IMG/VR virus record: IMGVR_UViG_3300017971_000228
Span: 1 to 64,000 of that record
Strand: one strand, 5' to 3'
DNA: 64,000 nt
Origin: a virus
In this document: positions 4,270 through 28,307 of the stretch, one piece after another
Layout: every line of letters begins with the position of its first letter
Numbering within the stretch: the stretch's first letter is position 1
Position numbers and translations under genes: made by a program
Notes under the pieces: generated by a model
Database searches by the model: none
Told to the model about the DNA's origin: nothing
What the model saw: only the letters and a program-made list of their open reading frames with translations

Positions 4270-5380
4270 CCTACTAGCGGACCAGCACCAACGCTCGCAC
4301 GGCATCCTCACCGGCTCCGGCACGTCTGCGCTCATATTGTCATTGTGGGCCCTGGGGCTGAGGGGCAAGACCGTCGCCATTCCCAACGGGGTATGCTATT
4401 CGGTGCCGATGGCGGTGTATCTGTCGGGGAACAAGCCGATGTATGTGGATCTGGACTTAGACACACTGAGCCTGGGCATCACCGAGTTTGAGAAGTGGCG
4501 AAGTTACGATGCCGTAATTGCGGTTCACAATTATGGGGCGCGGTGCCACATCGAAGCTCTGAACAGGTTCTGCGCAGATCACAAGGTGCCCCTTATCGAG
4601 GACTGCTGCGTTTCGCTGGGTGCCAAGGACATAGGCCATTGGGGCGACTTGTCGGTATTCAGCTTTGGCAGCGGCAAGATCCTGGACGCGGGTGGAGGCG
4701 GCGCGATTCTCGGGGATGACGCCAGGCTGCTCCAGACAGCGCACTTGCTCCAGCAGAGCTTTGGCCCACGGGACGGGATGTTCAACGCAGAGGCTGCGCT
4801 GTCCATGGCGCACACGGCGCTATACAACCAGCATTACGCTACATCCCGACGTAAGTTAGTGGTATTCAAGTCAATGGTGGATCTGATGGGACCAAGGACG
4901 CTATGGAGTCCGGGATTCATGCAGCAGCATGGCATTCTCTACGACCTGCTACCCAAGCTCTGGCATATCGTCGGGGAACGCGAACGCAAGTGGCAGTACC
5001 TGCATGATGAGCTGAAGGACGTGGTGGACATTTTCATTCCGCCCGAAGGCTCAGTTCATTGGCGCTTCAACTGCTTCATCGAGAAGGATCGCGACGGGCT
5101 GATGCATCATCTGCAAGCCAAGGGTTACAACGCCAGTTCGTGGCATGCGCCAGGGGATCTGTTTTTTGAGCAGGGTTCGAGATGCGGCAGTTTTGATTGG
5201 TTAGACCAGATGTTGGTTGAGAAACCCAACTACAATGATGCGTGGGCATATTGGCCCGTCACCGACTGGGTAGCAGATCACATTCTCAATCTGTGGGTGG
5301 ATCAGGCAGCGGATGAAGACTATCTGAAGGGGGTGGTGAAGGAGGTGAGGGGGTGGCACGCAACTACGACCAGCTCGTAG
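4250..5380 (+). CDS. DegT/DnrJ/EryC1 family PLP-dependent sugar aminotransferase
   Basis: A 376-residue protein of the DegT family, which transaminates keto-sugar nucleotides. Visible are the N-terminal TGSGTSALILSLWALGL, the AVHNYGARCHIEAL stretch, PLIEDCCVSLGA, and FSFGSGKILDAGGGGAIL with the likely PLP-binding lysine near residue 143. It lies between the antitoxin-like gene and small unknown genes. It is a natural partner for nonulosonic acid synthesis. The length is normal for the family. Confidence 0.9.
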   Translation: MPKTAIDLLADQHQRSHGILTGSGTSALILSLWALGLRGKTVAIPNGVCYSVPMAVYLSGNKPMYVDLDLDTLSLGITEFEKWRSYDAVIAVHNYGARCHIEALNRFCADHKVPLIEDCCVSLGAKDIGHWGDLSVFSFGSGKILDAGGGGAILGDDARLLQTAHLLQQSFGPRDGMFNAEAALSMAHTALYNQHYATSRRKLVVFKSMVDLMGPRTLWSPGFMQQHGILYDLLPKLWHIVGERERKWQYLHDELKDVVDIFIPPEGSVHWRFNCFIEKDRDGLMHHLQAKGYNASSWHAPGDLFFEQGSRCGSFDWLDQMLVEKPNYNDAWAYWPVTDWVADHILNLWVDQAADEDYLKGVVKEVRGWHATTTSS

Positions 5381-5714: not shown

Positions 5715-6024
5715 ATACTCCCTAAAGGATATTCCAATAGATGGCGTAGCAGTAACCGGCATAGCGCCCAAAGTACTCATCTACAAAGATTGCCGTCCTG
5801 GAGGTACTGCGACAGGCCAGTATGCCTATTGCGAGGGTTCACAGAAGTGGACGCTCTGGGACGAATGGATACGCATTCCGTACTTTCGCTTGCCAGGAGG
5901 TGAAATCATCTGGGGGCATCAGTGTTGGTGGACACTAGCTGACGGGACTGAAGGAACCGTGGAGGAAGAACAGGCCGCTTTGGAAGAACGCCTAGCAGAA
6001 ATGCGCGGGATGTTTCAGCCATGA
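5707..6024 (+). CDS. Hypothetical protein
   Basis: A 105-residue protein with an aromatic-rich centre. Its N-terminus (MARYSLKDIPIDG) resembles that of the next protein (MSSRYSLDRVPLDN), which may be a small duplicated segment. It overlaps both neighbours by a few bases. The function is unknown. Confidence 0.55.
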   Translation: MARYSLKDIPIDGVAVTGIAPKVLIYKDCRPGGTATGQYAYCEGSQKWTLWDEWIRIPYFRLPGGEIIWGHQCWWTLADGTEGTVEEEQAALEERLAEMRGMFQP

Positions 6025-6986
6025 GTTCGCGGTACTCCCTAGACCGAGTTCCCCTGGACAACGCCTGGGACGAGTTCGTTCAATCGTCTCCCGATCGCAC
6101 CATCTTCGCCCGCAAGCCTTACTTGGAAGGCGTGGGCGCTCAGCTCGGGACGTGGTTTTGCACCAAGGGGGAGCAGATCAAGGCAGCGTTCTTCGGTGTA
6201 GAGGGGGCGCATGGGCTAGAGGAAGATGACTTGGTGATCTATTCAGGCGTCCTTCACCAGAAGCCCGAGCCGGACCAGAATATCTCCCAAGCACGGTCTG
6301 ACAGGTTCAAGGTGATGGAGTTCATCGCGGCGGAGCTGCCCAAGACCTACAAAGTGATGGATTTTCAATTCAACACCAGCATCGTAGACATGCGTCCTTG
6401 GCTCTGGCATAACTATCACGAAGGCCCAAGGTATCAGGTGGAGGCGCGGTATACGAGCTACTTTGCGATTGGGCAGTATGGGTGGGGAGAGGAGGGTTCC
6501 AAGAGAGCGGGTGAGCAGATGAGCCAGAGCCGCCGGCAGCAGATCGCCTACGCGCAGCGGGACGGGATCAAGGTCATCCATACGAAGCCCTGCATAGACG
6601 CCTTCCTGAACTGGTACGGGCATACGGTAGAGGGGACGGATGCCTGGTTCGTATCACGCCTTCGGCACCTGCTGATTCATCTGGACAAGGTGAATCTGAC
6701 ACGGTGGTATGTGGCCCTGTCGCCGATGGGTGAGGGCAGGGCCTTGGCGGTCTTTGGTGTGGACGGGGGAAGGGCCTACTATCTCTGGGGAGCACGCCAG
6801 CCGGATCACAAGGACAGTCCGGCGGGCACGGAGGTGGTCTGGGAAGCGATGGTGGATCTGGCGAATCAGGGGATTCCGTGGACGGATTTGGAAGGCGTGA
6901 ACAGTCCGCGACGCGGATGGTTCAAGCTATCCTTTGGCGGAAGCCTGATTCCCTATTTCAGAGTGAGGTATGACGCATGCGTCTGA
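6021..6986 (+). CDS. FemAB/GNAT-like transferase
   Basis: A 321-residue protein resembling FemAB-type GNAT-fold transferases seen in exopolysaccharide clusters. It has an N-terminal acceptor-like half (residues 1-130) and a C-terminal half with SRRQQIAYAQRDGIKVIHT, then WYVALSPMGEGRALAVFGVDGGRAYYLWGA and a final FKLSFGG, which follows the usual FemAB ending. It probably transfers an acyl or aminoacyl group to a sugar or lipid-linked acceptor; the donor is unknown. The ATGA overlap with the upstream stop supports the start. Confidence 0.7.
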   Translation: MSSRYSLDRVPLDNAWDEFVQSSPDRTIFARKPYLEGVGAQLGTWFCTKGEQIKAAFFGVEGAHGLEEDDLVIYSGVLHQKPEPDQNISQARSDRFKVMEFIAAELPKTYKVMDFQFNTSIVDMRPWLWHNYHEGPRYQVEARYTSYFAIGQYGWGEEGSKRAGEQMSQSRRQQIAYAQRDGIKVIHTKPCIDAFLNWYGHTVEGTDAWFVSRLRHLLIHLDKVNLTRWYVALSPMGEGRALAVFGVDGGRAYYLWGARQPDHKDSPAGTEVVWEAMVDLANQGIPWTDLEGVNSPRRGWFKLSFGGSLIPYFRVRYDACV

Positions 6987-7866: not shown

Positions 7867-8031
7867 ATGGATGCTCAAACTTCAGAGGTTACAATCACTA
7901 AGGCCAAAGGGGGCTACGTAATTGATCCGCTGACTGGCAAGCTAGAAGTCTATACTAATCCCGTGGTGGCCTTGGATCAGATCAGGGTGTTACTTGACAT
8001 GAGTGGGGTTGAAGTTAGGGAGAAAGAGTGA
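7867..8031 (+). CDS. Small hypothetical protein
   Basis: A 54-residue frame from the ATG at 7867 (preceded by AAAGGGATAACG) to a TGA that overlaps the next GTG start (GTGA). The sequence is mixed-charge with a single predicted strand-helix pattern (GGYVIDPLTGKLEVY, then VALDQIRVLLDMSG). The tight spacing argues that it is a real gene. Confidence 0.55.
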   Translation: MDAQTSEVTITKAKGGYVIDPLTGKLEVYTNPVVALDQIRVLLDMSGVEVREKE

Positions 8032-8846
8032 CGCTCCCCATCACCGTCGCCGTCTGCACCAAGAACGCCGAGTCCTACATCGAACGCTGCCTGGAAGCGG
8101 TGATCGCCAATCAGCCAGCGCAGATCATCGTCGTGGACGCCTGCTCCGGCGACAAGACCTGGCACATCATCAAGGACTGGCCGGGGATCTTTCCCGTCGC
8201 CAAGTACGGAGTCGGGTTAGCGTCGCAGCGGCAGATCGCCTTGAGCTACACCAACCAGCCCTACTACGCAGCCGTGGACTGCTTCCACATCCTCTACCAA
8301 CGCTGCTTGCTGGACTTGATGCGCGAGATGGACTGGTACGGGTTCCAGGCCATCCAGGCCAGGGAGTGGCAGGTGCCCAGCGAGAACTGGTGGACCAACG
8401 CCCGCGCCAGTGCGAACTACGACATCACCACCATGCCGCACGTCGAGGAGACCAACATGGTGGGCAGGCCGGCGCTGTACCGAACCAAGGCACTGAGGGC
8501 CATTGGGGGCTTCGATAGCAAGTTCGACTTCGTGGGCGATGAAGACACGGACGTCAGTATCCGCATGGAGATGGCGGGCTATCGCATGGGGCACGGGACG
8601 GGCATCGCCAAGCGGCTCGACGAGCTGGATTATCATTCGGCCATGCGGAAGTTCGTCAAGTACGGACGAGGCGACGCCAGGATCGTTCGCAAGTACCCAC
8701 GGAAGCGATTGGCGATCATCCGGCACCAGCTGTGGACGTATCCCTGGAGGCGGGGGCTGAAGCATCTGGAGTATTGGCCCTACTACGCATTGTGCGGGTG
8801 GGTGAGGTTTGGAGCGATGATGAAGGAGTTGACACGTGGCGAATGA
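8028..8846 (+). CDS. Family 2 glycosyltransferase (GT-A fold)
   Basis: A 272-residue protein. The N-terminus (ITVAVCTKNAESYIERCLEAVIAN, then IIVVDACSGDKTW) is the GT2 nucleotide-binding start. A variant metal site lies around YYAAVDCFHIL, and there is a C-terminal acceptor region (AIGGFDSKFDFVGDEDTDVSIRM) typical of this family. It probably adds a sugar to a glycan or protein acceptor. One exact copy of the dispersed motif (8628-8638) lies inside the gene, coding Asp-Tyr-His-Ser. Start GTG overlaps the upstream TGA. Confidence 0.88.
   Translation: MTLPITVAVCTKNAESYIERCLEAVIANQPAQIIVVDACSGDKTWHIIKDWPGIFPVAKYGVGLASQRQIALSYTNQPYYAAVDCFHILYQRCLLDLMREMDWYGFQAIQAREWQVPSENWWTNARASANYDITTMPHVEETNMVGRPALYRTKALRAIGGFDSKFDFVGDEDTDVSIRMEMAGYRMGHGTGIAKRLDELDYHSAMRKFVKYGRGDARIVRKYPRKRLAIIRHQLWTYPWRRGLKHLEYWPYYALCGWVRFGAMMKELTRGE
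8628..8638 (+). repeat. Dispersed motif GATTATCATTC, exact copy 1
   Basis: Exact 11-base copy inside the GT2 gene, read as Asp-Tyr-His-Ser. It is one of eight exact copies in the window, all on the + strand. Confidence 0.75.
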
Positions 8847-13885: not shown

Positions 13886-13906
13886 ATAAGCAATGAAGGG
13901 GGAAGA

Positions 13907-14074: not shown

Positions 14075-14085
14075 GGAGGACAACA

Positions 14086-14490
14086 ATGGATCGACGCGAA
14101 CTGCTCAAGAAGCTGCTGGGGGGAGCCGCTGGGGGAGTGATAGCCCTGGGCTTGCCCAAGGATATGGACATCGATACCTGCGATGAGGACGTGCTGGACT
14201 TACTGGCAGAGAAGATCGCAGAGAAGGTGGCAGAGCGGATAGGGCCCGCAGAGGATGATTTGATAGATGCGTCTCCGATGATGCCATACCCAGAGGAACC
14301 TATCATCACGATTAGAACGGTGCCATATCCACAGACTGTTACGGACAATTCAACTGGTTCGTATGGGATAGATTGGGGTACAGGCGGCAGTGTACTCTAT
14401 GACGACAACTCTACTGCGTGGAAGTTCTCAGGAAGTGGCGGGGTAGTATCGTGTTTGGGAGTAGCCGGATCAGCGGTTGATGTCTCCTAA
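14086..14490 (+). CDS. Putative Tat-targeted or membrane-anchored protein
   Basis: A 134-residue protein starting MDRRELLKKLLGGAAGG. It has twin Arg followed by LLKK and a hydrophobic stretch (LLGGAAGGVIALGLP), resembling a Tat signal or tail anchor. A helical acidic linker (LDLLAEKIAEKVAERIG) and a Gly/Ser/Asp-rich C-terminus without recognised domain follow. It is directly downstream of the TatA-like gene, with GGGAGGA upstream of the start. The RRELLKK motif is weaker than the RRQFLK of the protein at 7368. Confidence 0.6.
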   Translation: MDRRELLKKLLGGAAGGVIALGLPKDMDIDTCDEDVLDLLAEKIAEKVAERIGPAEDDLIDASPMMPYPEEPIITIRTVPYPQTVTDNSTGSYGIDWGTGGSVLYDDNSTAWKFSGSGGVVSCLGVAGSAVDVS

Positions 14491-15529
14491 CACCATCATC
14501 GCCATCCGCGCACGGACGCGGAGTTCACGGCTACACTCAAAGTGCCTGCAACCACTGGCAGGGAAGCCAGCTATCGTCCACGTAGGCGAACGGGCGGGGT
14601 TACTGCGGGACGTAGCGGATCGAGCGGTCTTCTGCATTCCTGACGGCAGGGCTGATGACGAACTGGCGGCGGTGCTAGGGGAACACTTCGGGGAGGATGA
14701 TTTCTACGCTGTCCACCGCGGACCGGAGTGGGACCCGGTGAGGCGGACGTGGGGCGCCATCGAGGAACACGAGGCGCAGATTATCATTGAGGGGCTGCAT
14801 GGGGATGCACCGCTGGCCTACATGGGATTCGTACGCCCGGCACTGCAACTGTTGGGACAACGCCCAGATCTGGACTGCGTCCGCTACGAGAACCTGGAAT
14901 GCCAGGTGACGATGGAGCATCTGGCCTGCCACGCCTGGCCAGTACGGCGAAGCTGGTGGGAGAAGACGGTCACGCTGAGGCCCAAGTCGGCAGGCTATCA
15001 GGAGCACCCCACGGCCTTCTTCACCGGCTACCCGGAGCAGTTCAAGGTGGGATTCCTGCCGGATGAGAACTTCTTCAGGCTGAGGCAGGACAGGTTTGGT
15101 CGGCCCTGGGATACCCGCTACTGCCTAGACTACCCGGAAGATCTGGTGTTCCTGGGAACGCTCTTCGAAGAGCTGTACAAAGACAAGCCCATCACGCTGA
15201 AGGAGGCAGTGCAATACGTGAACGCCCGTCCGCACCTACGGGCGCTGAACGCTTCCAGGGCAGAGTCGGTTCTGGTATACCCGACGGCGGTGCAGAAGCG
15301 GAAGTGGCGGCGGGCCTACGGGGAATGGGCGACGCCGGAGGGGTGTGAGCCGGTGCTGTGTGTGAACGGCAGCTGCTTCCTGGGGTGGGTGGATCCAGAA
15401 GACCGTGACAGGGACCAGCGACTGCATGGTTTGGACGGGAGCGTATGGAAGCGGGGGACGGTGAACTGTGAGTGCGGGGCGGGGCGAAGCGCAGTATGGA
15501 CGGGGGACAGGCGAGTCTGGCTGAAGTGA
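14480..15529 (+). CDS. CMP-sugar synthetase (NeuA/SpsF-like cytidylyltransferase)
   Basis: A 349-residue GT-A-fold nucleotidyltransferase. The N-terminal signature IIAIRARTRSSRLHSKCLQPLAGKPAIVHV is that of NeuA/KdsB/SpsF cytidylyltransferases, and a DTRYCLDYPEDLVFL stretch follows near residue 215. It would activate a nonulosonic acid made by the NeuB-like enzyme. The C-terminal ~110 residues are an unexplained extension with several Cys residues (VLCVNGSCFLGW, then VNCECGAGRS). Start: ATG 14480 rather than the adjacent TTG. Confidence 0.82.
   Translation: MSPNTIIAIRARTRSSRLHSKCLQPLAGKPAIVHVGERAGLLRDVADRAVFCIPDGRADDELAAVLGEHFGEDDFYAVHRGPEWDPVRRTWGAIEEHEAQIIIEGLHGDAPLAYMGFVRPALQLLGQRPDLDCVRYENLECQVTMEHLACHAWPVRRSWWEKTVTLRPKSAGYQEHPTAFFTGYPEQFKVGFLPDENFFRLRQDRFGRPWDTRYCLDYPEDLVFLGTLFEELYKDKPITLKEAVQYVNARPHLRALNASRAESVLVYPTAVQKRKWRRAYGEWATPEGCEPVLCVNGSCFLGWVDPEDRDRDQRLHGLDGSVWKRGTVNCECGAGRSAVWTGDRRVWLK
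14779..14789 (+). repeat. Dispersed motif, variant GATTATCATTG
   Basis: Ten of eleven bases match the best form; it lies inside the cytidylyltransferase gene, read as Ile-Ile-Ile, a frame different from copies 1-3. Confidence 0.65.
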
Positions 15530-15993
15530 ATGCGGGTCCGCTGACGGATGATCTGGTCGCTGAGAGGGTGATGGGGTGGCAGCGGAAGTGGGTATTGGCC
15601 AAGAGTCCCGGTGTTTTCTGGGGCGGACTCTATGCCACCAAGCTGGAATGCACCAACTACCAGCGGCGAAGCGGAATTGACAGAGATTATCATTCGACAT
15701 TGGTATGGGCAGAGGGGGATCGGATTGCAGCGTGGAGGGAGGAGTGGAAGCCGTCAACGGACGTGGGCGTGGCCATGCAAGCCGTTGAACACGTCCAGGG
15801 CTTGCCGTGTCTGGGGATAGGATTTGATCTGCATTCACGGGGAGATGTGAAGGTCCATCGGGAGAAGTGGACGGCTGAGATGAGCATGCCGGGGCTATAT
15901 CGACGGCAGGAATGGTGCGGTCATGGAGGTACGGCGGCGCTGGCCATCTGTCGTGCGCTGCTCGAATGGGCAGTATTCTTGACAGAACGCTGA
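15496..15993 (+). CDS. Hypothetical protein of the phage ABA-sandwich (BC1872-like) type
   Basis: A 165-residue protein. LTDDLVAERVMGWQRKW, then WKPSTDVGVAMQAVEHV and TAALAICRALLEWA follow the layout of the small phage ABA-sandwich domain proteins, whose role is unknown. I prefer the ATG at 15496; an upstream GTG at 15472 is also in frame. The -35 box of the promoter for the head genes lies at its 3' end, and the gene contains an exact copy of the dispersed motif at 15685. Confidence 0.65.
   Translation: MDGGQASLAEVNAGPLTDDLVAERVMGWQRKWVLAKSPGVFWGGLYATKLECTNYQRRSGIDRDYHSTLVWAEGDRIAAWREEWKPSTDVGVAMQAVEHVQGLPCLGIGFDLHSRGDVKVHREKWTAEMSMPGLYRRQEWCGHGGTAALAICRALLEWAVFLTER
15685..15695 (+). repeat. 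Dispersed motif GATTATCATTC, exact copy 3
   Basis: Exact copy about 300 bases upstream of the head-gene promoter, inside the ABA-sandwich-like gene (Asp-Tyr-His-Ser). Confidence 0.75.
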
Positions 15994-16007
15994 TTCGGTG
16001 GTACTAT
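15979..16007 (+). promoter_or_regulatory. Strong sigma70-type promoter for the portal operon
   Basis: TTGACA at 15979-15984, a 17-base spacer, and TACTAT at 16002-16007. The -35 box overlaps the end of the upstream coding region. The transcript would start near 16014 and meet a terminator hairpin about 30 bases later. Confidence 0.75.
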
Positions 16008-16043
16008 ATGATTACAATACAAGAGCCAACTTCTGAGATGTAA

Positions 16044-16077
16044 GGGCGACTCAGCACCATTGAGTCGCCCTTTTTTT
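16044..16077 (+). terminator. Intrinsic terminator hairpin ahead of the portal gene
   Basis: GGGCGACTCA (16044-16053) and TGAGTCGCCC (16061-16070) form a perfect 10-base-pair stem with a 7-base loop, followed by seven T. It lies between a strong promoter and the portal gene, so it acts either on readthrough from the cargo operon or as an attenuator of the promoter's own transcript. A near-identical hairpin occurs at 25381. Confidence 0.88.
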
Positions 16078-16096: not shown

Positions 16097-17572
16097 ATGC
16101 CAGATGAGACAAAACTGACGAGGGCCACCTTTGGCGAGTTGGGGGCGGCGGGCCTGAACCGCTATGGCGGCACGGTAGACAACGACTTCATCAAGGACCT
16201 GGAGCGAGCGACTTCCCGGTTCAAGATATTCACGGAGATGCGGCTGAACGATCCGGTCATTGGCGCGATTCTGTTCCTGGTGGAGCAGATGCTGCGCCGT
16301 GTCGTTTGGATGGTAGAACCTTCAGACCCGACGGATGACGTGGCCGTAGAACGGGCAGAGTTCATCGAATCCTGCATGGCAGACATGAGCCACACCTGGA
16401 ATGACTTCATCAGCGAAGCCATCACCTTCCTGCCCTACGGGTGGAGCTGGTTTGAACAGGTTTTCAAGAAGCGGCTAGGTCCAAAGCCGAAGAACTACTG
16501 CAAGGATCCCGCCCCATCATTGCACAACGACGGGCTAGTGGGCTGGCGCAAGTTCGCCGTTCGGGCGCAGGAATCCCTAGACCGATGGGACTTCGACGAG
16601 AACGGCGGCATCCAGGGCATGTACCAGCGACCAGCGCCGGACTACGTAGAGCGGTACATCCCTATTGACAAGTCGCTGCTGTTTCGGACGAGAGTAGAAC
16701 TGAACTCGCCGGAGGGGCGGAGTGTCCTGAGACACGCCTACCGCAGTTATCACTTCAAGAAAAATCTTGAGGTCATCATGGGCATCGGCGCGGAACGAGA
16801 TCTGGCGGGTATGCCGGTGATCTACCTGCCGCCGGGGGCCACGAAGGATGACTACGACCAGGCGCGGAAGGTCGTGGAGCGAGTAAGGGTAGACGAATAC
16901 TACGGACTTACCATCCCCGGTCCCAAGGCGACCAACATGGAGGCAGCCAGGGAGGGTGGGTGGTTGTTCGAGCTGGTCGTCAGTGGCGGGCGGCACTCCT
17001 TTGCCCTGGTGGAGATGCTGGAGTACTACGACCGACGCATGTCCATGGCCGTGCTGGCGCAGTTCATCATGCTGGGCAGCGGTTCGGTAGGCAGCTTCGC
17101 ACTTTCACGGGACCATTCGGAGATCTTCCTAAAGGCGCTGGAGGGGTGGGCGACGATGATAGCGGAGACCATCAACCGTCACGCCATCCCCAAGCTGATG
17201 CGCATGAACGGCTGGGATGAAGCACAGTCCCCGCAGCTGAAGCCTTCGGGTCTACTGAGAGCTGACATCGGCGAATTGAGTAACCTGATCATGGCCTTTG
17301 GCCAGGCGGGGTTGGATCTGCGTGACATCGAGGACCATATCCGGTCGCAGGCGAACCTGCCGCCCAGGACGGAAGAGGCGAAGCTGGTAGAGCCGATCAA
17401 GCCCATGAACCAGCGGAAGCCTGAAGTACCTGAAGAAGAAGAAGTAGAGAAGGCGGAACCCTGGCATCTGGTGGGGCGGATTCCGACGAGGGATGAGATT
17501 CTGGCGGGCTACCGGATCACGCCAGCGGATAGGGAACTGGTCGCAGCGGAGTTCGAGAAGGTGCTGGGGTGA
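16097..17572 (+). CDS. Phage portal protein (DUF935/Mu gp29-like)
   Basis: A 491-residue portal subunit, the dodecameric ring through which DNA enters the head. Portal-like features are FKIFTEMRLNDPVIGAILF near residue 45, a clip/stem region around residues 200-300, and SMAVLAQFIMLGSGSVGSFALSRDHSEIFL near residue 315, typical of DUF935-type portals. The acidic C-terminal tail (PEVPEEEEVEKAEP) is common. It is the first gene after the late promoter/terminator leader. No terminase is adjacent. Confidence 0.88.
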   Translation: MPDETKLTRATFGELGAAGLNRYGGTVDNDFIKDLERATSRFKIFTEMRLNDPVIGAILFLVEQMLRRVVWMVEPSDPTDDVAVERAEFIESCMADMSHTWNDFISEAITFLPYGWSWFEQVFKKRLGPKPKNYCKDPAPSLHNDGLVGWRKFAVRAQESLDRWDFDENGGIQGMYQRPAPDYVERYIPIDKSLLFRTRVELNSPEGRSVLRHAYRSYHFKKNLEVIMGIGAERDLAGMPVIYLPPGATKDDYDQARKVVERVRVDEYYGLTIPGPKATNMEAAREGGWLFELVVSGGRHSFALVEMLEYYDRRMSMAVLAQFIMLGSGSVGSFALSRDHSEIFLKALEGWATMIAETINRHAIPKLMRMNGWDEAQSPQLKPSGLLRADIGELSNLIMAFGQAGLDLRDIEDHIRSQANLPPRTEEAKLVEPIKPMNQRKPEVPEEEEVEKAEPWHLVGRIPTRDEILAGYRITPADRELVAAEFEKVLG

Positions 17573-19109: not shown

Positions 19110-19391
19110 ATGGGATTATTGGCGCAACTGAACAAGGCCACCGAAGACTACCACCGTCGCCTAGTAGACCAACTCCGCCCCTTCGTGAGCCGTCATACTT
19201 TCGAGCACGCTCATCGCAGGGCACGGGGGTATGCTGGTGGACGGGCGAGTCCGAAGCAGCCTACAGGACTAGTAGATGCGTTGAACTCAGGCGTCTTGCG
19301 GCAAGCGTCAGACAAGGATCTGCTGAAGCTGTATGAGATGGTGCAGCAGTTGTCAGTAGTAGAGGAACAAGAAGATGACCTTACTGACTAG
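19110..19391 (+). CDS. Hypothetical head-region protein
   Basis: A 93-residue basic, helical protein from the ATG at 19110. Its start (MGLLAQLNKA) resembles the N-terminus of the next protein (MTLLTRLNKG) and an internal stretch of it (LTLLAQLNKASF), suggesting a repeated docking or cleavage element. It overlaps the next gene by 17 bases. Confidence 0.55.
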   Translation: MGLLAQLNKATEDYHRRLVDQLRPFVSRHTFEHAHRRARGYAGGRASPKQPTGLVDALNSGVLRQASDKDLLKLYEMVQQLSVVEEQEDDLTD

Positions 19392-20289
19392 ACTCAACAA
19401 AGGACCAACTCTATCCTCCCTCCACGTCAACCAGCCGATAGGCGCTGACGGACCGCCGCTGGAATGGCCCGAATGGGACTGGGAAGCGGTCCGTGGTGCT
19501 ATTCTGGAAGAGATGGAGAGGCGGGGGATGGAGATTGTAGACAAAGACGATGGCTTGGAGGGGGACGGGGTAGAGAAGGGCTACGAAGTCCCCATCGTCA
19601 AGTATGATGACTTCAAGGGGCTCGTGTACGGGGTTGTACTTGAACCAGGATCGGTGGATTCTCAGGGTGACATTATCTCCGAGGAAGAAATCGAGAAGGC
19701 TTGCCACGACTTCATGCGACGCGGGCATCGGCTGGATCTCCAGCACCACCGTGACGTTCAGGACGACGAAGCTGAAGTCGTCGAGAACTACATTGCGCCA
19801 GGGGACTTCGAAGGTGTGAAGAAGGGTTCCTGGGTGATGGTGACTCAACTCAAGACGGATGAATTCAAGAAGCAGGCCCAGGAAGGTGAGATAGCCTTCT
19901 ACAGCATTCGGGGGCGGGGGATGCGACAGAGCGTGGAGCTGGGGGTAGAAAAGGCGGAGACGGTAGAGGAAGTGCTGACGCTGCTGGCCCAACTCAACAA
20001 AGCCTCCTTCACCAACGACGCCTGGGACAAGAGCGTGACGAACCGGCTCAGCGCGGCGGAGTACTGCCGGTGCTGTCTGGTGGACGGGAACGCTCCAGGC
20101 GAAGAGAAGGTGAAGGCAAAGTGCAAGCTCCCCATCCGCGCCACGCCAGGGGGACCCATCTACCGGGCGGCACTGCGTAACGCGGCCTCGCGCATCTCCC
20201 AGATGACGGAAGTGTCGGCTGAGGATCGAGCCAAAGCAGCCAGACGATTGGAGAACCTGAAGCAGCAGGCGGGGGTGGGCGAGGAGTGA
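19375..20289 (+). CDS. XkdF-like phage protease/prohead protein
   Basis: A 304-residue protein. GLVYGVVLEPGSVDSQGD, ACHDFMRRGHRLDLQHHRD and GSWVMVTQLKTDEFKKQAQ match the XkdF-type putative phage serine protease family, thought to process head proteins. The C-terminal ~80 residues add a Cys-containing segment (YCRCCLVDG, KCKLPI) and a helical ISQMTEVSAEDRAKAARRLENL. It sits downstream of the portal, as expected for a maturation protease. Confidence 0.78.
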   Translation: MTLLTRLNKGPTLSSLHVNQPIGADGPPLEWPEWDWEAVRGAILEEMERRGMEIVDKDDGLEGDGVEKGYEVPIVKYDDFKGLVYGVVLEPGSVDSQGDIISEEEIEKACHDFMRRGHRLDLQHHRDVQDDEAEVVENYIAPGDFEGVKKGSWVMVTQLKTDEFKKQAQEGEIAFYSIRGRGMRQSVELGVEKAETVEEVLTLLAQLNKASFTNDAWDKSVTNRLSAAEYCRCCLVDGNAPGEEKVKAKCKLPIRATPGGPIYRAALRNAASRISQMTEVSAEDRAKAARRLENLKQQAGVGEE

Positions 20290-20468
20290 ACGCAGAACCC
20301 GCCCGACGCTGGGAGCTGGCACCGCAGGTGACACGTTCCATCTTCACCGATCAGGTAATGGGCATCTGGCTGCGACCTGGGGAGTATGTTCGCTGGAAGC
20401 TACTGAAGATGCCGGACGGGACCAGGGAGGTGATTGGGTACAAGATCATCTCCCGACTCAACGCCTAG
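20286..20468 (+). CDS. Small hypothetical protein
   Basis: A 60-residue basic protein with a GTG start overlapping the upstream stop. No motif is recognised. It is the last gene before the second cargo island. Confidence 0.5.
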   Translation: MNAEPARRWELAPQVTRSIFTDQVMGIWLRPGEYVRWKLLKMPDGTREVIGYKIISRLNA

Positions 20469-20469: not shown

Positions 20470-21063
20470 ATGGGCTATCACTGGGCGCCGGATGACAGCT
20501 ACAAAGAAGGGTGGCAGCGGGCAAGGGAGACCGTAGCGCGGGTAGTCCGGAACTCGGTGGGCGTCCCCTCCAGCAAGGGTGAGGTGCTGTACGTGGCGGC
20601 GCGGTACGGCCTCGGCGAGGGACGGGTGGTAGAGATCGGCGCAGCCTACGGGCGATCTGCCATCTACCTGGCCAGCGGGACCAGAGACGGCAACCGTGGG
20701 AAGGTATGGAGCGTGGACCCGCACACGGAGTATCGGAGTGGTGAGGCGTTCCTTCAGAACCTGCGCGAAGCCGACCTAATCAACTGGGTAGTGCCGCTGG
20801 TCTGCACGTCACGGGAAGCGTATCTGGGGTGGGATGGAAGCCCCATTCGGGTACTGTTTGTGGACGGCGACCATTCGACTTCAGCGGCGAGAGAGGATCT
20901 GGGGTGGTGGGTGCCGCTAGTGGTTCCCGGCGGGGTGGTCATCGTAGACGATTACGGGAGCTATAGCAGCGTGGCCACGGCGGTGGATGAGTTCTGTCGG
21001 GCGGAAGGATATGAAGTGGCCGTATGCGATCAGATGGCGATACTGAGTGTAAAGGAGGACTGA
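20470..21063 (+). CDS. SAM-dependent methyltransferase (Methyltransf_24-like)
   Basis: A 197-residue protein with VVEIGAAYGRSAIYLA as motif I, VWSVDPHTEYRSGEAF, and RVLFVDGDHSTSAAREDLGWW followed by GGVVIVDDYGSYSSVA. This pattern is typical of the Methyltransf_24/O-methyltransferase group often found in glycan clusters. A GTAAAGGAGGAC ribosome site follows its 3' end for the next gene. Confidence 0.85.
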   Translation: MGYHWAPDDSYKEGWQRARETVARVVRNSVGVPSSKGEVLYVAARYGLGEGRVVEIGAAYGRSAIYLASGTRDGNRGKVWSVDPHTEYRSGEAFLQNLREADLINWVVPLVCTSREAYLGWDGSPIRVLFVDGDHSTSAAREDLGWWVPLVVPGGVVIVDDYGSYSSVATAVDEFCRAEGYEVAVCDQMAILSVKED

Positions 21064-21079
21064 ACTGAGCGAAAAGAAG

Positions 21080-22411
21080 GTGTTACTGGTGTACCCTCAC
21101 GTCCGCCCCTACATGGCGGACAAATGGATTCCCACGTCTCACGTATTTCTAGCCTCATCGCTATTGGCCCTGGGCTACGAACCTATCCTCATAGACGACC
21201 GATTCAGCAGAGAGCGCACATTATCATTATTGGCCCGGCACCTGGATGATGCACTGTTGGTGGGCATCGGGACGGCGACGGGTTCCCAGCTGCGGAACGC
21301 CCAGGACCTGGCCAGGTGGTGCAAGGAGAAGCGACCGGACGTTCCAGTCGTCTTCGGGGGGCCCTTCCCCTCAGCGAAGCCGGACCTGATGCTGGAGAGT
21401 CCCTACGTGGACGCGGTGGTGACGGGGCAGGGAGAGTGGGCGCTGCCGTACCTGTGCGAGTCCTTCCACGAAGGGGTGGTCCGGGGCCAGCGGGTGAACA
21501 TCGACAACCTGCCACCGCTGCCCTATGCGGACAGAGAGTTCATGCGGGTGAAGGACTATCTCAATCCGTACACGGTGGCCCTCAACTTCGCCACGTCGTC
21601 GGGGTGCGTGGGACACTGTGGGTTCTGCTACTGGCATGAGGACTACGGGTATAGTCGATTCTCTGCCGGCAGGGTAGGGCGCAACCTGGAACTGTTGGTG
21701 GACGCCTTCGGGATCGAGAACGTCCAGTTCGATGACGGGACGTTCTTCGTGGGACAGAAGCGGACTATGGAGATCGTGGAGGCCATCGCCGGACTGGGCA
21801 TCCGCTGGCGGGCCAACGGAAGAGTGGACACGCTGGCCAGCTTCCGGGAGGGGGATTGGTGGCGGATTGCGGAGGCAGGTTGCCACCTGATCCACATCGG
21901 GTTGGAGCATGTGTCGGGGCGGATTCTGGCGCTGATGGACAAGCGCATCGACCCGGTAGGCTGTCTACCTATCGTGCGACGGGCAAAGGAAGTGGGGATT
22001 GGGGTGCGGTTCCACCTGCTGCTGGGGAACCCCACGGAGACGGTAGAGGACCTGGAAGCAGTAGGGGAATGGCTGGCGCAGATGCTGGAAGCCTACCCTG
22101 ATCTGGACTACACCTGCAACTGGTTCACGCCGTACCCCGGATGCGCGATGACGGAAATCGCCAAGCGTCATGGCTACCGAGAACCAACGACGCTGGAGGG
22201 GTTCGAGCGGCTGGAGCTGGCAAACTACGTAGCACTACCCGAAGACGACCGCGAGATTATCAAAGAGACGTCGCCCTGGGAAGTGGACTACAGAGTCCCA
22301 TGGTTCACGGATGAGGAAAACGCGGAGTACATGCAGACCTTTCGGCGGGTGATTCCGCAGAGAGGGACGATTGAGACGACGGGAGGAAAGCGAGATGAGA
22401 TCTACGCCTGA
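21080..22411 (+). CDS. B12-binding-type radical SAM enzyme
   Basis: A 443-residue protein. The N-terminal ~140 residues resemble a cobalamin-binding Rossmann domain (LLVYPHVRPY, LLVGIGTATGSQ, VVFGGPFPSAKP). The radical SAM core then shows CVGHCGFC (Cx3Cx2C, near residue 180) for the [4Fe-4S] cluster, and NPTETVEDL. Such enzymes methylate unactivated carbons or rearrange sugars. Start: the GTG at 21080 is poorly placed relative to the strong AAAGGAGG at 21053; an in-frame CTG at 21065 fits that ribosome site better and would give an N-terminus LSEKKVLLVYPH. Confidence 0.88.
   Translation: MLLVYPHVRPYMADKWIPTSHVFLASSLLALGYEPILIDDRFSRERTLSLLARHLDDALLVGIGTATGSQLRNAQDLARWCKEKRPDVPVVFGGPFPSAKPDLMLESPYVDAVVTGQGEWALPYLCESFHEGVVRGQRVNIDNLPPLPYADREFMRVKDYLNPYTVALNFATSSGCVGHCGFCYWHEDYGYSRFSAGRVGRNLELLVDAFGIENVQFDDGTFFVGQKRTMEIVEAIAGLGIRWRANGRVDTLASFREGDWWRIAEAGCHLIHIGLEHVSGRILALMDKRIDPVGCLPIVRRAKEVGIGVRFHLLLGNPTETVEDLEAVGEWLAQMLEAYPDLDYTCNWFTPYPGCAMTEIAKRHGYREPTTLEGFERLELANYVALPEDDREIIKETSPWEVDYRVPWFTDEENAEYMQTFRRVIPQRGTIETTGGKRDEIYA
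21219..21229 (+). repeat. Dispersed motif, variant CATTATCATTA
   Basis: Nine of eleven bases match; it lies in the radical SAM gene, read in the third frame (Leu-Ser-Leu-Leu). Confidence 0.5.
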
Positions 22412-23258
22412 CACCGTCTGCATCTTCCTGGGGCCGCTGAACAACCTGACGACGCTGACGGCGACGGCGCTGGCCTTCCATCCGAATGTACAGGTGCTGA
22501 ATCATGGGGCACGGTATCTGTGGGAAGCGCGGGGGTGTAACTTCCTGTGTGACTTCACCGAAGCCAACTACCAGCGATTCATTGACGAGGCCGTTACCCT
22601 GTCGCTATCATCAGGTCTGTGCCGCTATGATGGGGGGTCCATTCTCTCCTCGCATACTTTCGAGGGGAACCCGGAGATGATTGCCCGCTACATTGAGATG
22701 CACGGTTCGGGCAGTCTCAAGGATGATATCCGGTGTTTGGTATGGAAGGACCCGATGGAAGTGGAGCGGATGATTGAGGGGACGATGCTGGACTTTCACC
22801 GGCTCTTCGCGCAGGATGGAGGCCGACTGCGGTTCCTGCTACCGATTCGCAATCCTCTGGATACGATGGTATCCATATCGAATGGCCAGCACTGGAAGCT
22901 GTTACAGGGGCTGAACAACAACGAACTCAGCCCCATTCTAAACCGTCTCTTCGCCATGATTCGCCGGTTTCTGAACCGAGAGAGGGACTTCCCCAAGAGG
23001 TTCTTCCACTTCACTCAGAGCGAGTTTGCAGAAACGGAGACATTACAGGCACTGGCAGAGTTCCTGCGGCTGGAACCGGACGAGGGGTGGATGGAGGTAT
23101 GCAAGGACATCTGGCAGATAAGACCATCCTATGCGCTGGATGAGACCAGTCGGAAGATCTATGCCCTTATCAGCAGGCTACAGTTGAGCCAGTTCCCGGA
23201 GGATATGGGCAAGCTGATGGGCTTCGCTGAACTAGAGGGGACGAGGCCGTTGCCATGA
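22395..23258 (+). CDS. Sulfotransferase-like protein 1
   Basis: A 287-residue PAPS-dependent sulfotransferase-like protein. FLGPLNNLTTLTATALAFHP occupies the place of the 5'-phosphosulfate loop, VWKDPMEVERM is a conserved middle element, and LLPIRNPLDTMVSISN matches the 3'-phosphate-binding Arg...Ser motif. It is a tandem paralogue of the next gene. I chose the ATG at 22395 (GGGAGGAAAGCG upstream) over a TTG further up. It probably sulfates a glycan together with the neighbouring enzymes. Confidence 0.72.
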   Translation: MRSTPDTVCIFLGPLNNLTTLTATALAFHPNVQVLNHGARYLWEARGCNFLCDFTEANYQRFIDEAVTLSLSSGLCRYDGGSILSSHTFEGNPEMIARYIEMHGSGSLKDDIRCLVWKDPMEVERMIEGTMLDFHRLFAQDGGRLRFLLPIRNPLDTMVSISNGQHWKLLQGLNNNELSPILNRLFAMIRRFLNRERDFPKRFFHFTQSEFAETETLQALAEFLRLEPDEGWMEVCKDIWQIRPSYALDETSRKIYALISRLQLSQFPEDMGKLMGFAELEGTRPLP

Positions 23259-24145
23259 ACCCCAACACGCTCTGCCTGTTCCTGGGGCCCTATCGGAACC
23301 TGACATCACTGACGGCAGTGATGCTGTGGCTTCATCCTCAGTGCCAGGTGCTGAACCATGGCTACCGGCTGGTGGGCGGGGAGCGGATGAGATGGTTCCT
23401 GACGGCTGAGGACTCGGAGCGGTTCAACATTTTCATTCGCTTGCTTACTGAGCTATCGACGCAGGTAGTGGACAAAGAAGAGTGCAGCCCACACGTCCTG
23501 CAGGTAGTCCAGGACAACGCAGGGGTAGAGGACGCCTTCGGACGGCTGCATGGCGTTCCACCGGTGGCGATGGTAAAAGACCCGATGAAGTGTCTGGTGT
23601 GGAAGGAAAGCCAGCTGGTGATGAACGAGCTGCTGGCGATAGACATCCAGTGGGATGAACTCTTCGCCCAGAACAGCAAGCTACGGTTCATCATGCCCTT
23701 CCGCAACCCCATGGAATGTGCGGTATCGAACCACCGGCAGCGCAAGTGGATCTTCTTCTTGGGGCTCAACGACAACGACCCCCTACTGATGCTCAGGGCG
23801 GTGCTGGCAGAGTTTGCCTGGTTCGTAGGAATGGAGCAGCGGTACCCGGAACGGTTCTTCCACTTCTACGAAGACCTGACGGCGGAGACACTGACAGAGC
23901 TACAGCAGTTCCTGGGTCTGGACTACCATCAGGAGTGGGTGGATACGGTGTTGGGACTGTGGAAGATCCGCCATCCCTACCTATTCTCATTCGAATTCGT
24001 CCAGTACTATCTGCACATGGTACGCCTGCACTTCGGGGCGTGGCCGGAGGAGGAGAAGCGTCTGGTGGACTATGTAGACGGGGGCAGGGTACAGAAGCTG
24101 AGAGGAAGGGACTGGGATCGGGTGGGGCAATATGCCGACAGATAA
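23255..24145 (+). CDS. Sulfotransferase-like protein 2 (tandem paralogue)
   Basis: A 296-residue protein clearly related to its upstream neighbour: LCLFLGPYRNLTSLTAVML at the start, QVLNHGYRL, KCLVWKESQ, and FIMPFRNPMECAVSNHRQ as the 3'-phosphate element. The pair likely arose by duplication and could modify two positions or acceptors. It overlaps both neighbours, so the island is translated as one unit. Confidence 0.72.
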   Translation: MNPNTLCLFLGPYRNLTSLTAVMLWLHPQCQVLNHGYRLVGGERMRWFLTAEDSERFNIFIRLLTELSTQVVDKEECSPHVLQVVQDNAGVEDAFGRLHGVPPVAMVKDPMKCLVWKESQLVMNELLAIDIQWDELFAQNSKLRFIMPFRNPMECAVSNHRQRKWIFFLGLNDNDPLLMLRAVLAEFAWFVGMEQRYPERFFHFYEDLTAETLTELQQFLGLDYHQEWVDTVLGLWKIRHPYLFSFEFVQYYLHMVRLHFGAWPEEEKRLVDYVDGGRVQKLRGRDWDRVGQYADR

Positions 24146-25262
24146 CGGCAAGACACCCTACAATGTCCTGCTGCTGGTAGTGGACTGCCTGCGCTACGAT
24201 CATCTGCCGCTATTCGAGAGGACGCTGGGGCATCTGGGGACGAAGGTGTGGTTCTCCAATGCCTGGAGCATGGCCCCGATGAGTGACCCGAACTTTGCTA
24301 CGCTGATGACAGGCCAGCATTCAGATACCCACGGGGTACTGACGCAATGCATGGACACGGAGCTGATGACGCTGCAGGAGGCGTTGAGCTGGCGGGGGTA
24401 CAACACGCTGGGGGGTAGTGTGAGGTATTCAGGGGGGCCACCCGAGGGGCTGAGCGGCTTCTACTTCCGCGGCTTCGATGAATGGATATGGCTGAAGTGG
24501 CTTGACTTTGATTCGCTGGCAGTAGCGGAACGGATAGGGGCCTTGGAGCGTCCCTGGTTCGCCATGCTGCGACCGATGGACCTACATGAATCAGCACCGC
24601 AGAAGTACGACTATGATCGCTGCTGCCGCGATCTGGACCAGCGCCTGGATCTTCTACTGGGCATGGTAGTAGAAGAGAATACGGTAGTGGTCCTCACCGC
24701 CGACCATGGCCAAGGGCTGGGAGAACGGGGCATGTGGCACCATCGAGAGGGACTATGGCAGTTTCTATCACACGTGCCGGTCGTGTATGCTCACCCATCC
24801 TTTCATGCCAGGGAATGCGGGGCGCTGTACCAGCACATGGACACCACGGCGACGATTGCCGGGCTGTGCGGAGCGGACTTCGAGACCCAGGGCATCGACT
24901 GGTCACGGTACCTGACGGATACGCTGGTTCCGGACCGCATGCGGGAGTACGTGATTCTGTATTCCATGGGGTCGGAGAAGAGGGCGCACCTGGAGTTCTC
25001 AAAGCTATGGCGATATCGAGCCATCCGAAGCTACTTCTGGTCCTACTATGAGAGTCGCCGGCAGGGGGAAGAGGGGGAGCCGGAGCTGTACTTCACGCTC
25101 ACCGATCCGCTGGAAGAACACAACCTAGCGACTCTCAAGCCGACGGATAAGCTGGCGGCGCAGTGGTCACAGATGCTGAACTGGCCTGAAGATGGGGGCT
25201 ACACAGCGGAGGAAGAGGAAGTGGTTTTGGAGCGATTGAGGGCGATTGGGTACGCAGATTGA
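24132..25262 (+). CDS. Sulfatase/phosphatase superfamily enzyme
   Basis: A 376-residue alkaline-phosphatase-fold protein. VLLLVVDCLRYDHL carries the first metal-binding Asp, MSDPNFATLMTGQHSDTHG is the nucleophile region, and VVLTADHGQGLGERG holds the later Asp-His pair. The usual C/S-x-P-x-R has Ser first and Phe in place of Arg, so formylglycine maturation or a Ser/phosphoglycerol-type mechanism is uncertain. Paired with two sulfotransferases it may edit sulfate or phosphate esters on a glycan. Confidence 0.82.
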   Translation: MPTDNGKTPYNVLLLVVDCLRYDHLPLFERTLGHLGTKVWFSNAWSMAPMSDPNFATLMTGQHSDTHGVLTQCMDTELMTLQEALSWRGYNTLGGSVRYSGGPPEGLSGFYFRGFDEWIWLKWLDFDSLAVAERIGALERPWFAMLRPMDLHESAPQKYDYDRCCRDLDQRLDLLLGMVVEENTVVVLTADHGQGLGERGMWHHREGLWQFLSHVPVVYAHPSFHARECGALYQHMDTTATIAGLCGADFETQGIDWSRYLTDTLVPDRMREYVILYSMGSEKRAHLEFSKLWRYRAIRSYFWSYYESRRQGEEGEPELYFTLTDPLEEHNLATLKPTDKLAAQWSQMLNWPEDGGYTAEEEEVVLERLRAIGYAD

Positions 25263-25289: not shown

Positions 25290-25318
25290 TTGACATCCTG
25301 AAAGGAATCTGCTATTAT
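25290..25318 (+). promoter_or_regulatory. Strong sigma70-type promoter for the scaffold/capsid operon
   Basis: TTGACA at 25290-25295, 17-base spacer, TATTAT at 25313-25318. The start point would be near 25325, exactly where a long palindrome begins. A terminator hairpin follows about 55 bases downstream. Confidence 0.8.
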
Positions 25319-25325
25319 AGACTCG

Positions 25326-25350
25326 TACATCGTGCATTATGCACGATGTA
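25326..25350 (+). promoter_or_regulatory. Perfect 12-base inverted repeat at the transcription start (operator candidate)
   Basis: TACATCGTGCAT and ATGCACGATGTA flank a single T. Overlapping the predicted start point of the promoter, it is well placed to be an operator; as RNA it would be a very short-loop 5' hairpin. No second copy was seen in the window. Confidence 0.7.
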
Positions 25351-25380
25351 TCAACGGAATAGCCGTGTGCTGAGAAGTTC

Positions 25381-25414
25381 GGGCGACTCAGATCCAACGA
25401 GTCGCCCTTTTTTT
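25381..25414 (+). terminator. Intrinsic terminator hairpin ahead of the scaffold gene
   Basis: GGGCGACTC (25381-25389) pairs with GAGTCGCCC (25399-25407), loop of nine bases, then seven T. The descending arm, T-run and following GTTGC are identical over 21 bases to the hairpin upstream of the portal gene (16062-16082). It sits between a strong promoter and its first gene. Confidence 0.88.
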
Positions 25415-25430
25415 GTTGCCAGGGGGGCCT

Positions 25431-26183
25431 ATGCCTGAAAAGGTGACGGAACTATTCGACGTTGAGGTGGAAACGGTGGGCCTTGTGAAACGCGGGGCCA
25501 ACAAGAGACCATGGTTTCTGATGAAATCAGAGGAGGGCAATACTATGGCAGAGGAAAAGGACGTGCTCGAAGTTCTCACCGAAATCGAGCAGGTCGAAGA
25601 GGGCGATCTGGAGATCAAGCACGTCCGCGGGCTTGCCAGCATCGTCAAGGGGCTGTTTGGTTTGACGACCAAGGAGCCAGAGCCTGAGCCAGAACCCGAG
25701 CCTGAGCCAGAACCGGAACCAGAGTTGGATGTGAGTGCCAGGTTGGATGCGCTAGAGAAGGCACACCAGACGGCGCTGGAGAAGGCGATGGTTGAGGTGG
25801 AGAAGGCACAGGCGGAGGCGGCGGAGGCCAAGGCGCAGGCGGCTGAGATGGCTGAGGCGAAGCGCAAGGTAGAGCTGGAGCCCATTGCCAAGAGTGCGGG
25901 GATGGACGTGGACATCTTCTATCGCCTGGAGAAGATGGACAAGGAGATCTTTGACGCAGTGACGGAGCGGTTCCGGGCACTGGACGCCCAGGTGACTGAA
26001 GCGGGCCTCTTCGAAGAGAAGGGCAGCACCCAGGCGGGTGAGCAGGATCCCAGCCAGCTGATTCTCAATCGGGCGGCTGAGCTCCAGAAGTCAGGCATGT
26101 CCGCTGATGAAGCCATTGCGGCTGCGGCCAGGGAAACGGGTGGGTATGGTGAAGCCCGCAACCAGGCCATGGAGGGTAAGTAA
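25431..26183 (+). CDS. Scaffold-like/capsid assembly protein with Glu-Pro repeat
   Basis: A 250-residue protein. The N-terminus (ELFDVEVETVGLVKRGANKR) matches the short leader seen in phage XkdF-type and scaffold proteins. A (Glu-Pro) repeat near residues 80-100 is followed by a long Ala/Glu/Lys coiled coil and a helical C-terminus (MSADEAIAAAARE). High charge and coiled coil fit a scaffolding protein just upstream of the capsid genes. Start is ATG 25431. Confidence 0.65.
   Translation: MPEKVTELFDVEVETVGLVKRGANKRPWFLMKSEEGNTMAEEKDVLEVLTEIEQVEEGDLEIKHVRGLASIVKGLFGLTTKEPEPEPEPEPEPEPEPELDVSARLDALEKAHQTALEKAMVEVEKAQAEAAEAKAQAAEMAEAKRKVELEPIAKSAGMDVDIFYRLEKMDKEIFDAVTERFRALDAQVTEAGLFEEKGSTQAGEQDPSQLILNRAAELQKSGMSADEAIAAAARETGGYGEARNQAMEGK
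25678..25725 (+). repeat. Glu-Pro codon repeat in the scaffold-like gene
   Basis: A short tandem run of six-base units (GAGCCA, GAACCC and similar) coding alternating Glu and Pro, a rigid extended linker between the N-terminal element and the coiled coil. The variant codons show protein-level rather than DNA-level conservation. Confidence 0.8.
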
Positions 26184-27344: not shown

Positions 27345-28307
27345 ATGCCCTCACCAACTCTCAAAGATTTGCATGTTAACAGCGTGCTAACGGAGATGTC
27401 CATCGCCTATCGGAACGATGCGTACATCGCAGACCGGGTTTTTCCCTTGGTCAATGTTGACAAACAGTCTGATATCTATGCTCTGTACACCAAGCAAGAC
27501 TGGTTCCGAGACGAGGCGCAGCGGCGTGCTCCGGGTGAAGAGGTGAAGACTAGTGGGTGGAACGTTGACACAACGAACACCTACTACTGCATCAACTACG
27601 CTCTGGGCAAGGACATCCCTGACGAAATCGCCGCCGGCGCAGATGACGTGTTCGACCTGGACCGGGACGCCACCATCTTCGTGACGGACAAGCTGCAGCT
27701 CAGGCGTGAGATCGAGTGGGCGGCAGACTTCTTCACCACGGGCGTGTGGGGAACGGATGCCACCTTCAGTGCCACCACACGGTGGAATGTGTACGCCAGC
27801 TCGGATCCACTGAGCGACGTGCATGACGGCATCGAGACCGTTCTACAGAATACGGGCAAGCGGCCCAACAAGTTCGTCATGGGCTACCAGGTGTTCAATG
27901 AGTTGCTGGACCACCCGGACATCCTGGATCGGATCAAGTACGGGGCGAGTTCCGGCAATCCGGCAGTGACCACGGAGATGGCACTGGCGCAGCTCTTCGG
28001 CGTGGATGAAGTGCTGGTAGCACGGGCCATCAAGACCACGAATATCGAGAAGAACGAATCGCCTACCATGAGCTTCGTGTGGGGGCAGCATGCGCTGCTT
28101 CTGTACGTGGCGCCACGGCCCAGCAGGCTGGAACCCAGTGCGGGCTACACCTTCGTGTGGAACCCGATGGGCGGACGCGGCCCTCAGATTATCAATCAGA
28201 GGCGTGATTCGGCCCGACACTGCGACGTGGTGGAAGCCATTGGGTACTGGGATTCGAAGCGTACCGCACAGGATTGTGGATATTTCTTCTCATCGGTCAC
28301 GGCGTGA
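27345..28307 (+). CDS. Major capsid protein (HK97-like fold)
   Basis: A 320-residue protein. PTLKDLHVNSVLTEMSIAY, YIADRVFPLVNVDKQSD, then RREIEWAADFFTTGVW and KRPNKFVMGYQVFNELLDHPDIL are typical of the capsid group found in many uncultured siphoviruses. A C-terminal VAPRPSRLEPSAGYTFVWNP and IGYWDSKRTAQDCGYFFSSV complete it. The strong AGGAGGATAACC ribosome site suits high expression. There is no long N-terminal delta domain; the separate scaffold-like protein may substitute. Confidence 0.85.
   Translation: MPSPTLKDLHVNSVLTEMSIAYRNDAYIADRVFPLVNVDKQSDIYALYTKQDWFRDEAQRRAPGEEVKTSGWNVDTTNTYYCINYALGKDIPDEIAAGADDVFDLDRDATIFVTDKLQLRREIEWAADFFTTGVWGTDATFSATTRWNVYASSDPLSDVHDGIETVLQNTGKRPNKFVMGYQVFNELLDHPDILDRIKYGASSGNPAVTTEMALAQLFGVDEVLVARAIKTTNIEKNESPTMSFVWGQHALLLYVAPRPSRLEPSAGYTFVWNPMGGRGPQIINQRRDSARHCDVVEAIGYWDSKRTAQDCGYFFSSVTA

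Follow-up and report, generated by a model that had tools for sequence, protein, structure and literature searches.

Sulfotransferases of Pfam family Sulfotransfer_3 are encoded in the genomes of cyanophage S-SRM01 and OM43 phage, with a function stated as unclear (PMC10580990). Among the eukaryotic giant viruses, the Megavirinae possess bacterial-like sugar pathways for their capsid fibrils (PMC10117803). Here we describe a cassette of five genes at positions 20470-25262 (+ strand) of the IMG/VR virus record IMGVR_UViG_3300017971_000228. The analysed window comprises bases 1-64000 of this 98,106-base record. The cassette encodes a methyltransferase (MT), a cobalamin-binding radical S-adenosylmethionine enzyme (rSAM), two predicted sulfotransferases (ST1 and ST2) and a protein of the alkaline phosphatase (AP) superfamily. 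In our view it is moderately likely to be a late-expressed glycan-tailoring block. It shares with the S-SRM01 and OM43 cases the presence of a sulfotransferase gene in a tailed phage. In contrast to these, the genes belong to a different family, occur in tandem and lie within the head module, accompanied by methyltransferase, radical SAM and AP-superfamily genes. With the Megavirinae it has in common the virus-encoded synthesis of rare sugars and a proposed decoration of the particle, but here the virus is a tailed phage, the tailoring genes sit in the capsid operon and the particle decoration is a prediction. New are the sulfotransferase family and its tandem arrangement, the combination of genes and the place in the head module. 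Phages are hardly known to bear sulfated sugars. Were the cassette to act on the particle, the virus would coat its capsid with a charged glycan, which would affect adsorption, stability and recognition.

The gene cassette

The five genes are closely packed between an XkdF-type protease gene upstream and a scaffold-like gene downstream:

20470..21063, + strand: MT, SAM-dependent methyltransferase of the Methyltransf_24 family (Pfam PF13578 6.6e-23, TylF 6e-7)
21080..22411, + strand: rSAM, cobalamin-binding radical SAM enzyme (Pfam B12-binding 5.5e-13, Radical_SAM 7.2e-13)
22395..23258, + strand: ST1, putative divergent sulfotransferase paralogue (identity to ST2, homologues, residue table)
23255..24145, + strand: ST2, divergent sulfotransferase by predicted fold (AlphaFold2 model, Foldseek/VIA structure matches)
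24132..25262, + strand: fifth gene, AP-superfamily hydrolase/transferase, first labelled 'sulfatase-like' (PF00884, alignments, motif check)

Profile searches and coordinates confirm this block, which had been noted in a preliminary description of the DNA. That description had all five genes overlapping, which holds for rSAM/ST1, ST1/ST2 and ST2/fifth gene but not for MT and rSAM, which are 16 bases apart. Its methyltransferase and cobalamin-type radical SAM labels were borne out: MT passes the curated Methyltransf_24 cut-off (82 bits against 26.3), and rSAM has, besides both Pfam domains, the CxxxCxxC cluster motif (CVGHCGFC, residues 176-183).

A divergent family of predicted sulfotransferases

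ST1 and ST2 are true paralogues with 32% identity (E 3e-39). Curated profile libraries place ST1 in no family and give for ST2 only a sub-threshold match to Pfam Sulfotransfer_1 (E 0.029). With the alignment of the two sequences as query, relatives were found in 14 genomes from about eight phyla, with members in Sumerlaeota, Planctomycetota, Chloroflexota, Desulfobacterales, Calditrichota, Bacteroidota, Neomarinimicrobiota and Altiarchaeales. One other phage carries a member as well. Searches of isolated phages with ST1 and ST2 found none, and single-sequence patterns run against IMG/VR yielded no close relatives of ST2, the AP-superfamily protein or rSAM.

An AlphaFold2 model of ST2 built from a 15-sequence alignment was confident (predicted local distance difference test, pLDDT, 85; predicted template modelling score 0.86). 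When it was compared with the PDB using Foldseek and VIA, the best 50 structures listed were sulfotransferases or proteins of the same fold, e.g. retinol dehydratase. The closest solved structure was tyrosylprotein sulfotransferase-2 (TPST2; Z 14.8, root mean square deviation 3.7, 219 residues). Further matches included the sulfotransferase domains of curacin and olefin synthases (Z about 12.6) and heparan 3-O-sulfotransferases (3-OST, Z 11.7). The matches did not place the protein with kinases or other P-loop families, such that the two paralogous sulfotransferases of the preliminary description are upheld by the fold, which sequence profiles barely detect. According to the model, ST2 is a sulfotransferase at the fold level; ST1 would be one as well, judging from its identity to ST2, and sulfate transfer is the activity that we infer for both.

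Conserved residues agree with this picture. R150, S158 and K117 of ST2 are invariant in 16 of 16 homologues, a motif of the R-x-P-x6-S type is present, and ST1 keeps the equivalents of all three residues. R150 and S158 are placed like the Arg/Ser pair that binds the 3'-phosphate in sulfotransferases, and K117 occupies what we take to be the position of the catalytic Lys in the TPST structure. An hhalign comparison paired the RNP...S of the family with the canonical RDP...S, although weakly (E 0.007 for a single pair, probability only 5%). The loop corresponding to the 5'-phosphosulfate loop reads RNLTS in ST2 (RNLTSL) and NNLTT in ST1 (NNLTTL), compared to the canonical [RK]SGTT. Its position and the Thr are kept, while S-G is replaced by N-L (once N-M) in all members. 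The family signature is GPYRNLTTLTA...HPNCQVLNH.

Like the enzymes dependent on 3'-phosphoadenosine 5'-phosphosulfate (PAPS), among them TPST2, heparan 3-OST and the Pfam Sulfotransfer_1/3 members, the family thus has the fold (residues 1-280 of the ST2 model), the R...S motif and an invariant Lys in WK[ED]. It differs from them by the RNLT[TS] loop, by an identity of only 12-14% to the structures and by scores below the Pfam cut-offs. It forms a family of its own across bacteria, archaea and phages. To judge from the libraries searched, this family had not been described before; it now comes to light in some eight phyla and in two phages that are unrelated to each other. Among the 16 homologues compared, R14 is absent in ST1 alone and the His at position 83, which adjoins a poorly modelled stretch of ST2, is absent in ST2 alone; each copy has therefore lost a different family residue. 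ST1 and ST2 form the longest branches of the family tree, and tandem duplication and two separate acquisitions are both candidate origins.

The homologues have glycan genes as neighbours. On a 170-kb contig of an unrelated phage (L114) the family member directly follows a Methyltransf_24 gene and lies amid methyltransferase and glycosyltransferase genes, among them genes of the FkbM type and of glycosyltransferase family 2. In cellular genomes the members adjoin glycosyltransferases and canonical sulfotransferases.

The radical SAM enzyme and a possible small-molecule product

rSAM contains only nine Cys and has no SPASM-like Cys set. Its best NCBIfam matches, ApyD (1.9e-22) and HpnJ, both remain far below cut-off. 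A role as an anaerobic sulfatase-maturating enzyme was considered and is ruled out by the B12 domain, the low number of Cys and the missing SPASM-type set. As a separate observation, Streptomyces phage SF3 (L022:7401-8900) carries a B12-binding radical SAM gene beside thymidylate-kinase and NUDIX genes. The SF3 radical SAM protein has 26% identity to the cassette enzyme over half its length.

Methyltransferases, B12 radical SAM enzymes and sulfotransferases also co-occur in natural-product clusters, such that the cassette could tailor a small molecule or peptide, e.g. a nucleotide product or one resembling ribosomally synthesised and post-translationally modified peptides (RiPPs). ApyD, a RiPP enzyme, would fit this idea, as would the tyrosylprotein sulfotransferase as nearest solved fold to ST2 and the matches to natural-product sulfotransferase domains. 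However, the scores of HpnJ and other lipid/sugar enzymes are near that of ApyD, and the proteins scanned included no recognisable precursor peptide or synthase. In addition, the homologous sulfotransferases occur in glycan loci, and sugar genes abound in the record. We consider such a product unlikely.

The fifth gene

The fifth protein (376 aa) matches PF00884 over residues 11-247 (6e-14). It possesses the AP-superfamily features of metal-ligand Asp and DHG motifs with a nucleophile position (D18, D191-H192 and the predicted nucleophile S51) as well as H152, and its C-terminal half is choline-sulfatase-like. The formylglycine motif [CS]-x-P-x-R has no match anywhere in the protein, the site reading SDPNF (residues 51-55). 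In an alignment to choline sulfatase the sulfate-binding element GK-x-H is missing, with GSVRY in its place, and no signal peptide is apparent. From these residues a Ser-nucleophile phosphohydrolase, phosphodiesterase or phosphotransferase appears likelier than a formylglycine sulfatase. An AlphaFold model from two sequences reached a pLDDT of only 38.7.

The nearest cellular homologue found (L031, a genome in the phylum of L008) is of the TxPSH type with a Thr nucleophile. An AP-superfamily homologue was present in 1 of 201 genomes from this phylum, and none was found at 1e-15 in 247 genomes from the phylum of L009. In an unrelated phage contig a short AP-superfamily 'sulfatase' homologue (L115:5968-6927) directly follows presumed capsid genes. 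Both homologues lack CxPxR, as does the fifth protein. With non-formylglycine PF00884 members it shares D18, the position of the Ser/Thr nucleophile, D191-H192, H152 and the general layout; it is set apart from CxPxR sulfatases and TxPSH proteins by the Ser in SDPNF, its length and the lack of an apparent signal peptide.

The preliminary description had called this protein a sulfatase and proposed a cycle in which the sulfotransferases add sulfate and a true sulfatase removes it on the same glycan. The PF00884 match and the choline-sulfatase-like half speak for such a cycle. Against it stand SDPNF in place of CxPxR, GSVRY in place of GK-x-H, the lack of an apparent signal peptide, the B12 type of rSAM, which is no sulfatase-maturating enzyme, and the TxPSH type of the nearest cellular homologue found. 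The protein belongs to the superfamily but lacks the sulfatase-defining residues, such that neither the sulfatase label nor the making and removing of sulfate esters is supported, and we regard the cycle as highly improbable.

The head module and its boundaries

The surroundings of the cassette are formed by head genes and two promoter-terminator modules:

15979..16075, + strand: module 1, TTGACA-17-TACTAT, short leader and intrinsic terminator GGGCGACTCA..TGAGTCGCCCTTTTTTT, immediately upstream of the portal gene (sequence, hairpin scan, BLAST between modules)
16097..17572, + strand: portal protein (phrog_113 portal, E 4e-75), first gene of the head unit, which runs to the end of the cassette
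19375..20289, + strand: XkdF-type head maturation protease, upstream neighbour (Pfam Peptidase_S78_2 2.9e-27, phrog_3017 2.9e-34)
20286..20468, + strand: 60-aa open reading frame (ORF) between protease and MT, no family match above cut-off
25290..25415, + strand: module 2 (z -5.5), TTGACA-17-TATTAT and intrinsic terminator at 25381-25407, directly before the scaffold gene
25413 or 25431..26183, + strand: scaffold-like gene, downstream neighbour (weak phrog_3017 match, 4.7e-8; its place ahead of the decoration and capsid genes is also that seen in relatives)
27345..28307, + strand: major capsid protein, query for relatives (37-70% identity to L005/L004; annotated as major capsid protein in phages)

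Both promoters are near-consensus, that of module 2 at 25290 with 11 of 12 matches, and a perfect 12-bp inverted repeat is found at the transcript start (25326-25350). Lying between the cassette and the scaffold gene, the module closes the cassette unit. A hairpin scan of the whole 98-kb record found just two strong perfect-stem terminators, those at 16044-16070 and 25381-25407, and they are near-identical (90% over 39 bases). In the pR'-tR' region of lambda, a promoter is followed by an immediate terminator and then by the late genes. The two modules look like antitermination or attenuation in this style, or like the source of a short RNA. By this analogy, the layout suggests that the genes from portal to cassette form one late-expressed unit; the codon usage of the cassette equals that of late genes. 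Rfam returned nothing over threshold, a match of module 2 to sRNA71 being taken as chance (20.7 bits against a cut-off of 50). A quick scan of relatives revealed no promoter-terminator module of the same layout.

Two further features of the head module were noted. Tandem near-duplicate decoration-type genes (window 26186-26605 and 26620-27039), possible carriers of a virion glycan, lie ahead of the capsid gene, and a trypsin-like protease (window 18165-18980, Trypsin_2 1.3e-13) is encoded besides the XkdF-type protease.

The cassette in relatives and possible host-surface remodelling

With the capsid protein as query we collected 80 phage loci, none of which carries any of the five cassette genes according to tblastn. 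The protease-capsid distance is 1.2-3.8 kb in the 40 loci with both matches and about 7.4 kb in this record. In L005 the cassette site is empty, protease and scaffold being separated by 45 bases. A profile search of the whole records of 40 relatives returned neither PF00884 nor Sulfotransfer_3; since the Sulfotransfer_3 model misses the ST family, tblastn is the better test of absence.

Other insertions are found in these modules. In the capsid relative L056 a cytidylyltransferase, an N-formyltransferase and NeuB lie between a MuF-like gene and the protease (L056:2679-6495), and NeuB also occurs in a second capsid relative, a sister record of L059. This shows that capsid operons of this phage lineage take up surface-sugar genes. 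Arthrobacter phage Ottawa has an RNA ligase, a nuclease and small ORFs between its portal and scaffold-like genes.

The head genes could be just a tolerated insertion point for a cassette that is unconnected with the virion and remodels the surface polysaccharide of the host during infection or lysogeny, e.g. for receptor masking or superinfection exclusion. Phages commonly carry sugar genes for surface-glycan change, and the cargo just described, nonulosonate genes in L056 and unrelated genes in Ottawa, would fit a tolerated site. However, standing last in the portal-protease unit, the cassette should be expressed late, at a time at which a change of the host surface would be less useful, and a scan of the genes that was not exhaustive recognised neither a flippase nor a polymerase. 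We hold this alternative to be possible but rather doubtful. Within the glycan-tailoring reading, we slightly prefer the virion to the host surface as location of the product, because the unit appears to be late and other phages carry such genes in their head modules.

Sugar genes and the proposed pathway

The glycan role put forward in the preliminary description gains weight from a set of nonulosonate-type sugar genes in other parts of the record. Within the window these are:

155..1222, + strand: NeuB, nonulosonate (sialic-acid-type) synthase (Pfam NeuB 2.6e-58 and SAF; NCBIfam NnaB 1.1e-70, below the equivalog cut-off)
4250..5380, + strand: DegT-type sugar aminotransferase (PF01041 4.7e-32)
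6021..6986, + strand: FemAB-like acetyltransferase (Acetyltransf_6, 2.6e-5)
8028..8846, + strand: family 2 glycosyltransferase (PF00535 4.2e-15)
14477..15529, + strand: cytidylyltransferase-like protein (CTP_transf_3, 3e-6)

Over the whole record the set also has a PseG-like hydrolase (3.6e-32), PseC/LegC-like aminotransferases, Fe-ADH and DUF4910, the CTP_transf_3 proteins numbering two in all, and it further includes Methyltransf_11 and URO-D-like genes. The sugar genes are located at both ends of the record, at 0.15-15.5 kb (window 155-15529) and 92.3-98.0 kb (L003:12328-17982); the two stretches would be contiguous if the genome is circularly permuted. None of them reaches an NCBIfam equivalog cut-off, and the sugar can therefore be assigned only as nonulosonate-type. 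The set likely makes the substrate glycan of the cassette.

We propose that ST1 and ST2, as PAPS-dependent enzymes, would move sulfate from host PAPS onto sugar hydroxyls, while MT would add an O-methyl group. On the same glycan or a precursor of it, rSAM would alkylate or otherwise rearrange a carbon, and the fifth protein would carry out a phospho-ester step, for which a precursor linked to a nucleotide or lipid may be the target. The glycan itself would probably be built by the phage's own nonulosonate-type pathway and glycosyltransferases. The most specific form of this proposal, in which the phage mounts its own sulfated and methylated nonulosonate-type glycan on the capsid and the two new-family copies act as a pair, we consider rather unlikely.

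Several observations weigh against glycan tailoring by sulfate transfer. The sugar genes are not physically tied to the cassette: some lie upstream of the portal gene, the others at the opposite end of the record. No APS kinase was found in the record, such that PAPS would have to be supplied by the host. The loops RNLT(T/S) and NNLTT are not [RK]SGTT, which leaves PAPS binding a prediction of the model. The profile of the ST family gave only chance matches and no sulfotransferase when searched against PDB sequences, so that a fold search was needed. Finally, rSAM fits no characterised radical SAM subfamily.

Alternatively, the cassette could modify the bases of the phage DNA (hypermodified, glycosylated DNA). 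The record does contain a TET-associated glycosyltransferase (TAGT 1.1e-38, L003:3330-4166) and several N6/N4 DNA methylases. Yet the TAGT gene adjoins the terminase genes far from the cassette, no TET/JBP dioxygenase was found in the record (the control for the model being weak), and the neighbours of the sulfotransferases elsewhere are glycan genes, all of which makes DNA modification very unlikely. Among the methylases, one further N6/N4 gene lies downstream of the capsid gene (window 30230-30841), and a 1043-aa N6/N4 DNA methylase frame (L002:10602-13733) contains a match to an intein splicing domain.

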